From Planctomycetaceae bacterium (GTDB taxonomy: Bacteria > Planctomycetota > Planctomycetia > Planctomycetales > Planctomycetaceae): a stretch of DNA of 64,000 nucleotides. Positions 50,108 to 64,000 of the stretch are shown here, piece by piece. Within the stretch, counting starts at the first letter, position 1. Each line of letters starts with the position of its first letter. The translations under genes and the position numbers were made by a program. The stretch is from assembly GCA_020426325.1 (NCBI GenBank), contig JAGQQG010000014.1, positions 1 through 64,000 on the forward strand. The letters run 5' to 3'. The notes under the pieces are model-generated. The model was not told the origin of the DNA. It did no database searches and was given only the letters and a program-made list of their open reading frames with translations.

Positions 50108-50581
50108 ATGCGAATTCTCATCCTAGAGGACTGCATCGAAAGGCAAGCATTGATGGAGACCTGTCTTGCAAAAGGCTTTCCAGATTACAATGTGTCATTC
50201 GATCGTGATGCAAACGCTTTCTGCGAGCGAGTGCGACGCGACGGGCTTGCTGATGTTGCCCTGATTGCACTCGATCACGATCTGGAGATGATCCTCGATG
50301 ATTCCGGACAACTTTACGATCCGGGGACAGGTCGCGATGTGGCTGAGTGTCTCGCTCAGCTTGATCCCGTGTGTCCGGTCATCATCCACTCGACGAACTC
50401 GCCTGCTGCTGTTGGAATGGAGCAATGCCTTCAGGACGCACACTGGACCACGCATCGGGTCATCCCTTTCGTGTCTCCCGTTAGCCGAGGAAGTGATGAT
50501 GCGGCACCTGCAAATGCGGAGTGGATCCGGACCTTTTGGTATCGGACCTGTCGAAAGGCCATTTCCTCCTCGTTGCGGTAG
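50108..50581 (+). CDS. Cyclic-phosphate processing receiver (cPPR)-like protein
   Basis: 157 aa, receiver-like fold. The N-terminal acidic patch is MRILILEDC; residues 55-59 are LDHDL, then DPGTGRDVAE at 71-80 and IIHSTNSPAA at 92-101, the pattern I know from cPPR domains. That family is thought to act on 2',3'-cyclic phosphate RNA ends. No RNA ligase or Rnl gene is in the window, so the gene is an orphan. Identity by motif only. Confidence 0.65.
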   Translation: MRILILEDCIERQALMETCLAKGFPDYNVSFDRDANAFCERVRRDGLADVALIALDHDLEMILDDSGQLYDPGTGRDVAECLAQLDPVCPVIIHSTNSPAAVGMEQCLQDAHWTTHRVIPFVSPVSRGSDDAAPANAEWIRTFWYRTCRKAISSSLR

Positions 50582-50678: not shown

Positions 50679-52109
50679 ATGGCGAAAGACTTTCTTGCGG
50701 GAACGAAAGACCGCTATGACGTGGTGGTGATCGGCTCGGGACTGGCCGGGCTGACGGGGGCGAACGTGCTCGCCAAGCAGGGGTATTCCGTCCTGCTGCT
50801 TGAGCATCACTATCAACTCGGCGGGATGGCCACGTGGTTCAAACGCCGAGGGGGACACATCTTCGATATCTCTCTGCATGGCTTTCCGGTTGGGATGAAG
50901 AAGTCCTGCCGAAAATACTGGACCGACGAGATCGCTGAGAGCATCGTCCAACTCAAAGGCATCCGCTTCGAGAATCCGCAATTCTCTCTCCGCACGACGT
51001 TCACCCGGGAGGATTTCACAAGGATCATCACGGACGAGTTCGGGATTCCATTCGAGACGGTCGATCAGTTCTTCGCCACGGCCCGGTCGATGAATTTTTA
51101 CGATGACCAGAGCAAGACCACGCGAGAGCTGTTCGAGGAGTTCTTCCCCGGCCGCAGTGACGTGCATCGTCTGCTGATGGAACCGATCACCTACGCCAAC
51201 GGCTCGACGATGGAAGACCCGGCCATCACCTACGGCATTGTCTTCAGCAACTTTATGAGCAAGGGGGTCTTTACCTTTCAGGGGGGGACAGACAAGCTGG
51301 TGCAGCAGATGAAGGCTGAGTTGGAGGCGAACGGCGTTGACATTCGCATCCGCTCGCTCGTGGAAGAGGTTGAGGTCACTCCCGATCGTCGCGTCACAGC
51401 CGTGGTCGTCAACGGTAAACGTGTCGAGTGCGGGGCCGTGCTCTCAAACGCAAATATCAAATCGACGATCCTGAAACTTGTCGGTGAGGAACACTTCGAT
51501 CCGGAGTATGTCGATGAAGCGAAAGCTGTCCGACTGAACAATTCGAGCTGTCAGGTCTACATCGGTCTCAAGCCGGGGGTCAGTTTTGACGACAGCTGCG
51601 GCGACTTGCTGTTTCACTCTGAGCATACCGGCTTCGACGTCGATGCCATGCTCTCCAAGGATGTCAGTAGCCGAACGTTCTCCTTCTACTATCCTCAAAC
51701 CCGGCCTGGCAGCGACCGCTGGTTGATCGTCTCCTCAACCAACGCCAATTACGATGACTGGGCGAACCTGCCCGAAGATCAGTATGAGGCGGACAAGCAA
51801 CATCTGTGCGAGACGACGCTCGACTGTCTGGAGCAGTACGTCCCCAACATTCGCGAGAAGCTCGATTGGATCGAAGCGTCGACCCCGCGAACATTCAAGC
51901 ACTACACCCGCCATCTCGAGGGGGCCAGCTTCGGTACCAAGTTCGAAGGCCTCAAGGTCTCTCAGACGCTTCCCGAGCAGATTCACGGCCTGTTTCACGC
52001 GGGTTCCGTAGGCATCATCATGTCCGGCTGGCTGGGTGCGGTGAACTACGGCGTGATCACGTCAAACGAAGTCGACAAGTACCTGACGCCCGCGGAAGCG
52101 ACTGTTTGA
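50679..52109 (+). CDS. CrtI/CrtISO-like FAD-dependent oxidoreductase
   Basis: 476 aa. The FAD-binding motif [17 protein letters not shown] is at 16-32, with [11 protein letters not shown] at 39-49 for the nucleotide. The family desaturates or isomerises carotenoids and similar polyenes; the C-terminal region ([16 protein letters not shown]) is related. A paralogue is at 61060-62478 beside an acyl carrier protein. Whether the substrate is a carotenoid cannot be said; no phytoene synthase is in the window. Confidence 0.8.
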
Positions 52110-61059: not shown

Positions 61060-62478
61060 TTACCTCAACAGGTGGTTGTTGGCCATTGTGATGCCGCTGA
61101 GCATGGCGCCGATGATGCCGAGGAAGCCCTGGTCGGTGCCGCAGAGGAAGAGGTTGTCGATGCCGGTTGTGCCGTCGAGGACTTTTCGGGGGGCACCGTA
61201 GACAGCCCCTTTGAGGTGTCCGGTGAACTTCTTGATCGTGCGGGGTGTGAAGATGTCCGTATCGATGATGTGGTCGCGAAAGTCGGGGATGTGCTGAATG
61301 GCTGACTCGACCATGCGGCGGCCCCATTCCTCCTTGGCCGGGTAATACTCGTCATCCGGCAGCGACATCCAATAGTCCGGATCGGCCAGCGACGTGATGC
61401 GGATGTAGCCCTCGTCGAGTTGTTCGCCATCGGCATAACGAAAGTTGTTGGGTGAGCAGATGATGCCGCTCCGCAGATCGAGCGGTTCGGTCGGCGGCTC
61501 GTAGTGAAACTGCTGCGCATCGTTGTAGAACACGATGGTCTCATCGTGCCCCAATTCGCGAGGTTGACAGTCGAGCACGAAGATCGCCTCGTTGAAGCTG
61601 ATCTCGCCGGAAGGGGGAATGGAGTATTGAGCATGGAGAACACCTTCTGCTCCATTCTCCATTTTCCATTCTCCATTCACCAACCTCAGCGTCTCCACAT
61701 GCCCAGCCGACGACAACACGTGCTCCGCCTCGATCTCGGTGCCATCGTCGAGGATCACGCCAGTGGTGCGTCCATCTTCGACCATGATCTCGCGAACGCC
61801 GTGACGGAGTTTGAGTTCGCCGCCGAGTTCCTTGTAGTGACGGGTCAGCTTCTTGAGGATTTGCCGAACTCCCTTGAACGGACGGGCGAAGCCTTCTTCA
61901 AAGATGCTTTTGAACATGATGCAGAACTGGCTGAAGTCCATGTCGTGCGGCGTCGCTGAGCCGTAGAACATTAGCGGACAGAACAGCATGTCGATCAGTG
62001 TTCGGTCTGAGAGGAATTCGCTGAGCACCTGGCGTGCGGATGCCGGTTCGTTCGAGAGGCTGGTCTCGTCGTAGTCATTGATGTGTATGACGAGTTTGCG
62101 AAACCGATCGGCCTGTTGAGGGAAGACATCGCAGACGTTCTCAACGAATGCTGCAAAGTCGTTCGCGAACGGAATGCGATATCCAGGGAAAACGACCGAT
62201 GAACCGTTCTGCGGTGAAAGGTCAAAGTCGTCCCACCTCAGGCGGAGTTGTTTCAGCAGTTTGGCGAGTGGGCCGGTACGTGTGCCGGGCTCGGCGTAGT
62301 TCGTGACCGCGTGAAGGCCGACATCGTAGTTACGGCCTCGAAGTCGGTAGAACGAGTTCAGCCCGCCGATCGTCGTGTGCCGTTCGAGAATGCAGACCGG
62401 CTTCTCGTAATAGGCCAGCCGAATCCCCGCTGCCAGTCCGGACATCCCGGCGCCGATGATGACGGTGTGATATCGCAC
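61060..62478 (-). CDS. CrtI/CrtISO-like FAD-dependent oxidoreductase, second copy
   Basis: 472 aa. FAD motif VIIGAGMSGLAAGIRLAYY at 6-24, CILERHTTIGG at 29-39, and C-terminal FLCGTDQGFLGIIGAMLSG, the cofactor region. Paralogous to 50679-52109. On the minus strand with the uncharacterised conserved protein, acyl carrier protein and ketosynthase, so it probably acts on an acyl or polyene made on the carrier. Confidence 0.8.
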   Translation of the reverse strand: MRYHTVIIGAGMSGLAAGIRLAYYEKPVCILERHTTIGGLNSFYRLRGRNYDVGLHAVTNYAEPGTRTGPLAKLLKQLRLRWDDFDLSPQNGSSVVFPGYRIPFANDFAAFVENVCDVFPQQADRFRKLVIHINDYDETSLSNEPASARQVLSEFLSDRTLIDMLFCPLMFYGSATPHDMDFSQFCIMFKSIFEEGFARPFKGVRQILKKLTRHYKELGGELKLRHGVREIMVEDGRTTGVILDDGTEIEAEHVLSSAGHVETLRLVNGEWKMENGAEGVLHAQYSIPPSGEISFNEAIFVLDCQPRELGHDETIVFYNDAQQFHYEPPTEPLDLRSGIICSPNNFRYADGEQLDEGYIRITSLADPDYWMSLPDDEYYPAKEEWGRRMVESAIQHIPDFRDHIIDTDIFTPRTIKKFTGHLKGAVYGAPRKVLDGTTGIDNLFLCGTDQGFLGIIGAMLSGITMANNHLLR

Positions 62479-62554
62479 GTTTTATCGGCGTTTTCAGGCG
62501 TCTCTGGTGACAAGTTTCAAACAGTCGTTCAGGGTAAGAATGAACGACACTCGC

Positions 62555-63313
62555 CTAGACCCACGTGTCCTCATTACGCTGACGCCCCTTGATTGTCTTC
62601 ATGTAGACATGTCGATGTCGAGAGACAATCCCACTGGCCTTCCTGATCTTCATGAATCGATCAGCAGGGAGAGGTGATTCTCGCCAGTGCATGATTTCTT
62701 CGTGACCGAACGGTTCGCTGATCTGTGCATAGAGTTCATGGTCGAAGTCGGCTTCACCATGATACTCGCCGTCATGGATATGGACTGTCGGGAAGAACAG
62801 TTGTTTGAGTTCACTGCGTCGTGGGAACTCAAATGCCATCGGGTGATGACGGTGACGCTCGGGTTTTAATTGAAAGACCACAAATCCATAGTCCGAGTAC
62901 CCACGAATTTGATCCCAGATTCGGCGAGGAATTCGAAATCGTTTATCGAGGCGATTGAAGTCATCGAATGTTGGGACAAAGGATGCCTCAAAACTGCCAA
63001 CTTCTTTGACCTCCAGATCCGCGGCTCGACCAGACCCACCAAAACCGCCCGAGAAAGAGTTCGTCTTCCGCGGAGAGGGAAAACCCTTCTTGAGATCGGA
63101 AAAGAACTCAGGGTAGTCCTCTAATGAAATGAAGCGGACTGCATCCTCAGTCGACTGCGGAATGACAGGAATTGGCAACGTCATGGCGACGTCATCGCTG
63201 GCCTCGATCGACATTTGATAAACGATGAACTGGTTGCCTTCTCTCTTCCTTGAGTCAGCAGCGAAGATCCTGGTGTCTGATACGGATTCTGGTGGCGGTT
63301 GGATGCAACACAT
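62555..63313 (-). CDS. Conserved uncharacterised protein in the acyl-carrier cluster
   Basis: 252 aa from ATG 63313 (MCCIQPPPESVSDTRIFAAD); GGAG lies eleven bases upstream. It has no signal peptide. Recognisable stretches are QFIVYQMSIEASDDVAMTLP, then RFISLEDYPEFFSDLKKGFP, and HIHDGEYHGEADFDHELYAQ. I have a memory of this family across bacteria, without an assigned function. Adjacent Cys2-Cys3 and several His residues suggest metal or heme binding only as speculation. Confidence 0.65.
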   Translation of the reverse strand: MCCIQPPPESVSDTRIFAADSRKREGNQFIVYQMSIEASDDVAMTLPIPVIPQSTEDAVRFISLEDYPEFFSDLKKGFPSPRKTNSFSGGFGGSGRAADLEVKEVGSFEASFVPTFDDFNRLDKRFRIPRRIWDQIRGYSDYGFVVFQLKPERHRHHPMAFEFPRRSELKQLFFPTVHIHDGEYHGEADFDHELYAQISEPFGHEEIMHWRESPLPADRFMKIRKASGIVSRHRHVYMKTIKGRQRNEDTWV

Positions 63314-63364
63314 CGGCTTTTCTTCTCCGAGTGTGATGTGCTCGCCGCCATTCAACGGAGGACG

Positions 63365-63628
63365 TTACACACCAGCCGGCACGTCTGCCAGTTTCGGTGT
63401 GAGATAATCGACGGTGGAGTCCATCGTGATCAGGTTCTCGTATTCGTCTTCGGGAATCTGCACGCGGTATTGCTTGCGGAGTTCCATGACAATGTCCAGG
63501 AAGTCCATGCTGTCGAGTTCCATTTGATCGCGGAACGCGACGCTGTCGTCGAGGTCTGTCAGGTCTTCATCGGGAGCAATACGTTCCAGGATGTCCAAAA
63601 CGACCTGGCGAATCTCAGGCGGGGCCAT
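63365..63628 (-). CDS. acpP: Acyl carrier protein
   Basis: 87 aa. The phosphopantetheine site is Ser40 in LDSMDFLDIVMEL; the usual DSL is DSM, as in many specialised carriers. The surrounding sequence is acidic as expected. Located between a ketosynthase and the uncharacterised protein on the minus strand, so it is likely a dedicated carrier and not the housekeeping one. Confidence 0.9.
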   Translation of the reverse strand: MAPPEIRQVVLDILERIAPDEDLTDLDDSVAFRDQMELDSMDFLDIVMELRKQYRVQIPEDEYENLITMDSTVDYLTPKLADVPAGV

Positions 63629-63749
63629 TCACACGTCTCCATCAACAATTGGGACCGGTCCTTTAGCACCAGTCGCAGTCATACGGGGGAGCGATCTACA
63701 GACTTGCAGACCCACTCACATCAGCGACAGCACCACAGCTCGAACCAAC

Positions 63750-64000
63750 TCAGTTGTAGAGACCGCCGTGCTCCGCGGGGAATTTGCGGACGATCAACAC
63801 GGAGTTAATCCCCAGCATGCCGAACGAATTGTTCAGAATGCACTCGGCCCGTTCCAGCGATCGCGGCTCATTCGCCACAATTTGAGGCAGGGCACAGCAG
63901 GGATCCGGATGATCGAGATTGATTGTAGCGTGCGCCATCCTGTCGTCAAACGCAGGCACGTTCCCCAACAGCTCTAATGCACCAGCGGCTCCCATCGCGT
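63750..64000 (-). CDS. Beta-ketoacyl-ACP synthase, 3' part (runs off the right edge)
   Basis: Only the last 83 codons are inside the window; the 5' part continues beyond 64000. Sequence has MGAAGALELLGN, INLDHPDPCCALP and ANEPRS, then LNNSFGMLGINSVLIV, matching the C-terminus of FabF-type condensing enzymes. The usual glycine loop NSFGFGGTN is replaced by NSFGMLGIN, a departure seen in divergent ketosynthases. The active-site Cys lies outside the window. Confidence 0.85.
   Translation of the reverse strand, partial: AMGAAGALELLGNVPAFDDRMAHATINLDHPDPCCALPQIVANEPRSLERAECILNNSFGMLGINSVLIVRKFPAEHGGLYN

Follow-up and report, generated by a model that had tools for sequence, protein, structure and literature searches.

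A ketosynthase, an acyl carrier protein and two CrtI-type flavoproteins as a candidate acyl supplier to the Ole hydrocarbon pathway of planctomycetes

Described suppliers of polyunsaturated chains

Hentriacontanonaene is made in Shewanella and Geobacter by a Pfa synthase that acts as acyl supplier to OleABCD. The chain that OleA draws from the acyl carrier proteins (ACPs) of Pfa is predicted to be 16:4n-3, giving a C31:9 hydrocarbon (PMC6463001), and the FabA-like dehydratase (DH-FabA) domains of Pfa carry out 2,2- and 2,3-isomerization, placing the cis bonds (PMC9702510). That Pfa-like synthases feed Ole was proposed by Shulse and Allen in 2011 (PMC3098273). Desulfotalea psychrophila has C31:8 and C31:9 without a known PUFA pathway and carries CrtI-like genes in its type II fatty-acid synthesis (FASII) clusters, and a desaturase-modified FASII was proposed for this bacterium and for Kuenenia by Rattray in 2009 (PMC2649909). 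Hydrocarbons of the C31:8/C31:9 type have been reported from planctomycetes as well, the references cited for this including the descriptions of Schlesneria and Singulisphaera (PMC2649909). In Helicobacter, the flavoprotein FabX is a dehydrogenase/isomerase of acyl-ACP (PMC8626469), a precedent for a flavoprotein forming double bonds inside type II fatty-acid synthesis.

Here we describe a planctomycete module of a ketosynthase (KS), an ACP, two CrtI-type flavoproteins (CrtI1 and CrtI2) and FabZ-, FabG- and FabI-type enzymes that, like Pfa, would be an acyl supplier partnered with OleABCD. Where the Pfa route relies on a multidomain synthase with FabA-like domains, this module would rely on small stand-alone enzymes together with two CrtI-type flavoproteins. 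Like the FASII clusters of D. psychrophila and Kuenenia, it joins KS, ACP and phytoene-desaturase-like genes, but radical SAM genes are part of those clusters as well (PMC2649909), and no radical SAM gene was seen among the conserved cluster families that we scanned. The Ole pathway, its supply by Pfa and the desaturase-modified FASII have each been published separately. We found no paper that joins this module to OleABCD or gives its exclusion with Pfa, in a search that left most subscription journals outside, and the novelty of an Ole-linked module is provisional.

The locus, its ketosynthase and its flavoproteins

The window, i.e., the whole stretch of DNA that was analyzed, comprises bases 1–64,000 of a 79,675-base contig (C55) in a 6.8-Mb planctomycete draft genome. 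A first-pass annotation had placed a KS with an altered C-terminal loop, a dedicated ACP, a conserved protein of unknown role and a CrtI-like FAD oxidoreductase together on the minus strand at one end of the window, and all four genes were found there. The ACP (63365–63628, minus strand) matched Pfam PP-binding (E 7.5e-8), and its phosphopantetheine site is the serine of LDSMDFL, which agrees with the DSM site that had been noted. Only the C-terminal part of the FabF-type KS lies in the window (63750–64000, minus strand). The full gene (G000:C55:63753 to ~65036) is completed beyond the window end, and the first gene upstream of it is divergent and is not a fab gene.

In a phylogenetic tree, the KS orthologues formed a clade of their own (100/100) that excluded the 19 planctomycete FabF-type proteins compared. 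Across the genomes surveyed (199, see below), full-length KS matches were 59–83% identical and the next-best KS matches were at most 38% identical, so the group is sharply bounded. The catalytic Cys-His-His was retained in the orthologues. The gating loop, GFGGTN turned to GMLGIN in the window KS, read GMLGIN or near-identical in 34/34 orthologues in place of GFGG(T/H)N, whereas a GFGG-type loop was present in 18 of the 19 FabF-type comparators. The altered loop is therefore real and conserved, and its sequence is consistent with altered chain acceptance. The first-pass annotation had held that housekeeping fab genes next to a KS grouping with primary FabF would mean ordinary fatty-acid synthesis; we looked for both and saw neither. 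At two other loci (L102:9523-10788 and L104:6682-8127), in two same-family genomes (G024 and G194), CrtI1 adjoins a different and very divergent KS-like protein in which the Cys and His motifs are kept, and the dedicated KS is located elsewhere.

CrtI1 (61060–62478, minus strand; 472 aa) matched Pfam Amino_oxidase and NAD_binding_8, bearing out its assignment as a CrtI/phytoene-desaturase-type FAD oxidoreductase. CrtI2, the other CrtI-type flavoprotein in the set, is encoded at 50679–52109 (plus strand), 9 kb from CrtI1 here, and adjoins CrtI1 in many other genomes; the two form distinct clades in a tree. Predicted models of CrtI1 and CrtI2 (mean pLDDT 86 and 84) were nearest to the gamma-carotene desaturase 4rep, with CrtI (4dgk) a close second. 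The models indicate a CrtI-type fold with an FAD-binding Rossmann motif, i.e., the fold and FAD-binding motif of the CrtI/CrtISO/gamma-carotene desaturase family. Unlike members of that family, CrtI1 and CrtI2 are linked to KS and ACP genes and not to carotenoid genes, and neither passed any curated carotenoid family cut-off (e.g., 62–99 bits versus 238–587). The best NCBIfam match of CrtI1 was carotenoid isomerase, far under the curated cut-off (74 bits versus 587 for carot_isom, with 62 versus 238 for crtI_fam), and the CrtI2 orthologue of another planctomycete (G121) scored 99.6 versus 587 and 81 versus 238 on the same two models. FabX belongs to another fold family; the flavoproteins of the module, unlike FabX, are predicted to have the CrtI/amine-oxidase fold. 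We propose that CrtI1 places or isomerizes double bonds on ACP-bound chains.

Several minor features were seen around the two crtI genes. Within the crtI1 frame there is a short GGARAATGG-type tandem repeat (window 61652–61681, minus strand; 3 matches versus 0.01 expected from shuffling), which maps to a loop of the model with pLDDT <50 (residues 270–281). A protein with a cREC_REC (cyclic-phosphate processing receiver) domain is encoded directly upstream of CrtI2 (window 50108–50581, plus strand). Another contig (L116; G156:C37) carries CrtI1 twice, as identical copies in inverted orientation whose flanks mirror each other, which looks like an assembly palindrome.

Distribution, gene clusters and association with Ole

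We surveyed 199 Planctomycetota genomes, with gene calls at GC-rich loci scored by conservation. CrtI1 orthologues were present in 42 genomes, and exactly these 42 carry CrtI2. The KS was present in 41, the exception (G184) being a partial genome. The distribution is patchy, at ~20% of the sampled genomes, and all 42 also have OleA. Separate FabF genes are present alongside the dedicated KS (e.g., in G152 and G121).

In 42 stretches read around the KS and CrtI genes, a recurrent cluster was observed that comprises KS, ACP, CrtI1, CrtI2, a FabZ-type dehydratase, FabG-type and FabI-type reductases and, often, a small HTH regulator. The same clusters also contain OleA, OleB (an alpha/beta hydrolase), OleC and OleD, identified by Pfam and NCBIfam. 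At most linked loci an ACP of one family (F2) adjoins KS/CrtI1, and at one locus (L218) all eleven genes lie in order on one strand. Around 80 CrtI2 loci in titled records, many of them ending at contig ends, FabZ was nearby in 44, FabI in 33, CrtI1 in 31, ACP in 26, KS in 25 and OleD in 14. Some records are titled Nitrospirae, Deltaproteobacteria and Dehalococcoidia (L218, L239, L206 and L230); these may be mislabelled MAGs, and we make no claim of spread beyond the phylum. The clade of its own formed by the KS, its co-occurrence with CrtI1 and CrtI2 (41–42/199) and the recurrence of KS-ACP-CrtI neighborhoods with FabZ, FabG, FabI and OleABCD all speak for the dedicated acyl/polyene pathway suggested by the first-pass annotation.

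The protein encoded between ACP and CrtI1 (62555–63355, minus strand; 266 aa) did not share this pattern. It has no Pfam or NCBIfam match, and its family (244–266 aa) was present in 8/199 genomes. Homologues of distant planctomycetes are 42–50% identical and conserve an FPTxHIHDG...FDHxLYxQ motif, and in the 7 other genomes no KS, CrtI or Ole genes lie beside them. Because the family is rare and unlinked to KS/CrtI elsewhere, we rejected the protein as a pathway member and place it outside the conserved set, in which it had earlier been counted; it is probably a passenger.

In the window's own genome family the module genes are scattered, so there is no operon there to prove shared function. 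The dedicated FabZ of the window's genome is on contig C12 (56% identical), and a second FabZ-like gene is on C17 (29% identical). Its OleA (G000:C219:29174-30235, 55% identity), OleC (C8:11995-13653, 54%) and OleD (C417:14588-15556, 56%) do not adjoin the KS, ACP or CrtI genes, and the same is true of the Ole genes found across the family. No OleB was seen beside this OleA or OleC; OleB was found in the clusters of other genomes. Of the reference proteins used, OleA passes the NF006720 cut-off, and OleC and OleD had high scores on olefin models, below the strict cut-offs.

OleA was present in 72/199 genomes, the 42 with the module and 30 others. PfaD (TIGR02814), which marks the multidomain PUFA synthase, was found in 28 of those 30 and in 0/42 module genomes, the window's own included. 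At the family level, the module was present in 9 families, Pfa in 15 and both in 0. The two OleA genomes that have neither PfaD nor the module are G141, in which PKS-type KS pieces lie beside the Ole genes and whose OleA clusters in the tree with the OleA from a Pfa genome, and G003, whose OleA is divergent. Four Pfa genomes were inspected and had ORFs of ~1,600–2,260 aa, lying beside ole genes in three of the stretches read; the ORFs adjoining ole genes measure ~2,000–2,260 aa. Ole genes can adjoin giant PKS ORFs in PfaD planctomycetes as they adjoin the KS/CrtI module elsewhere, an equivalent arrangement with a different supplier. In the OleA tree, sequences from Pfa genomes and from type-II genomes fall into two clades, with ~2 label changes. 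We therefore rejected the reading of the exclusion as many independent events: it rests on about two historical switches, and Fisher p-values overstate it. As judged from the OleA sequences, the pairing of Ole with its supplier goes back deep in time and does not reflect numerous separate exchanges.

Proposed pathway and alternative readings

We consider it likely that the dissociated type-II synthase and the two CrtI-type flavoproteins supply polyunsaturated acyl-ACP to Ole, replacing the Pfa synthase in the formation of a C31:9-type hydrocarbon. This reading is based on the observed gene content, co-occurrence, PfaD exclusion, KS clade and altered loop, and from it we infer which hydrocarbon is made, that acyl chains pass to OleA and what reaction the CrtIs catalyze. 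The KS would extend the chain on the dedicated ACP, and FabG and FabZ would make a trans-2-enoyl intermediate. In some cycles FabI would saturate this intermediate, and in the remaining cycles CrtI1 and CrtI2 would set double bonds on the acyl-ACP. They may do so by isomerizing trans-2 to cis-3 and to cis-2, as the FabA-like dehydratase domains do in Pfa, or by flavin-dependent desaturation. Since those Pfa domains carry out 2,2- and 2,3-isomerization, a supplier without Pfa needs equivalent cis-bond placements. What the module has for this is a set of elongation enzymes and two flavoproteins whose superfamily comprises desaturases and isomerases of carotenoids. OleA would then join two chains head to head, and OleB, OleC and OleD would complete the synthesis of a long hydrocarbon with many double bonds, such as C31:9.

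More tentatively, the module might be a second, independently evolved route to PUFA chains that needs neither oxygen-dependent desaturases nor a Pfa megasynthase, in which the CrtIs act on acyl-ACP, one for each placement (2,3- and 2,2-isomerization), and feed OleABCD. If the proposal is true, the module would answer how bacteria lacking Pfa build C31:9-type polyunsaturated hydrocarbons, and CrtI-type flavoproteins gain a role on acyl-ACP, which bears by analogy on the unsolved ladderane pathway, the genes not being orthologous. As the gene set is defined and widely conserved in planctomycetes, the question of chain origin is directly testable by gene removal.

The separation of the Ole genes from KS, ACP and CrtI in the window's family would also suit a module whose product is a polyunsaturated or other unusual fatty acid destined for membrane lipids, with the Ole association reflecting shared lineage or co-regulation and not supply, and the matching split of OleA tree and supply type is what shared descent would give as well. 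We regard this as unlikely, as OleA is kept in every module genome (42/42), the module clusters directly with OleABCD in several families, and it excludes PfaD among OleA genomes. Desaturation of C30/C40 carotenoids, with KS and ACP as unrelated neighbors, is very unlikely: gamma-carotene desaturase and CrtI are the nearest solved folds and sequences, but the scores fall far under the curated carotenoid models, CrtI1, CrtI2 and KS co-occur across genomes, and KS-ACP-CrtI adjacency is conserved in many families with no crtB/crtE-type genes recognized among the conserved neighbors. Nor do we give much weight to the genes being those of ordinary fatty-acid synthesis, which we judge highly improbable. 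The KS does belong to the FabF superfamily and retains the catalytic residues, but its separate clade, GMLGIN-type gating loop and patchy distribution alongside separate FabF genes led us to reject an ordinary FabF identity.

The first-pass annotation had also likened the locus to the gene sets proposed for anammox lipids, and a ladderane-like pathway orthologous to those sets would share its gene types (KS, ACP, FabZ and CrtI-like) with the lists given for Kuenenia (PMC2649909, PMC4790861). We took as anammox only the families positive for hydrazine-synthase alpha (HzsA; f44 and f75, ORFs of ~809–844 aa), and at the thresholds used their genomes held no orthologue of KS, CrtI1, CrtI2 or OleA. 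Their CrtI-like proteins are 21–25% identical and form a separate clade, and the anammox KSs in the tree fall outside the dedicated KS clade. Distribution and trees thus reject orthology, which makes the ladderane reading extremely improbable and largely refuted in that form; the likeness would be one of chemistry, by analogy. Two Kuenenia CrtI-like proteins that were tested made no lycopene (PMC4790861), so the analogy of a CrtI fold with another substrate stays fair. The HZS_alpha Pfam model (PF18582) also matches many large proteins that non-anammox planctomycetes encode in multiple copies, with as many as 23 in one genome, and is therefore not a clean anammox marker. Two records titled Candidatus Kuenenia stuttgartiensis (L166 and L168) encode a CrtI2 that is 78% identical and close to Planctomycetaceae; as the HzsA-positive genomes are without CrtI2, these titles are probably wrong.
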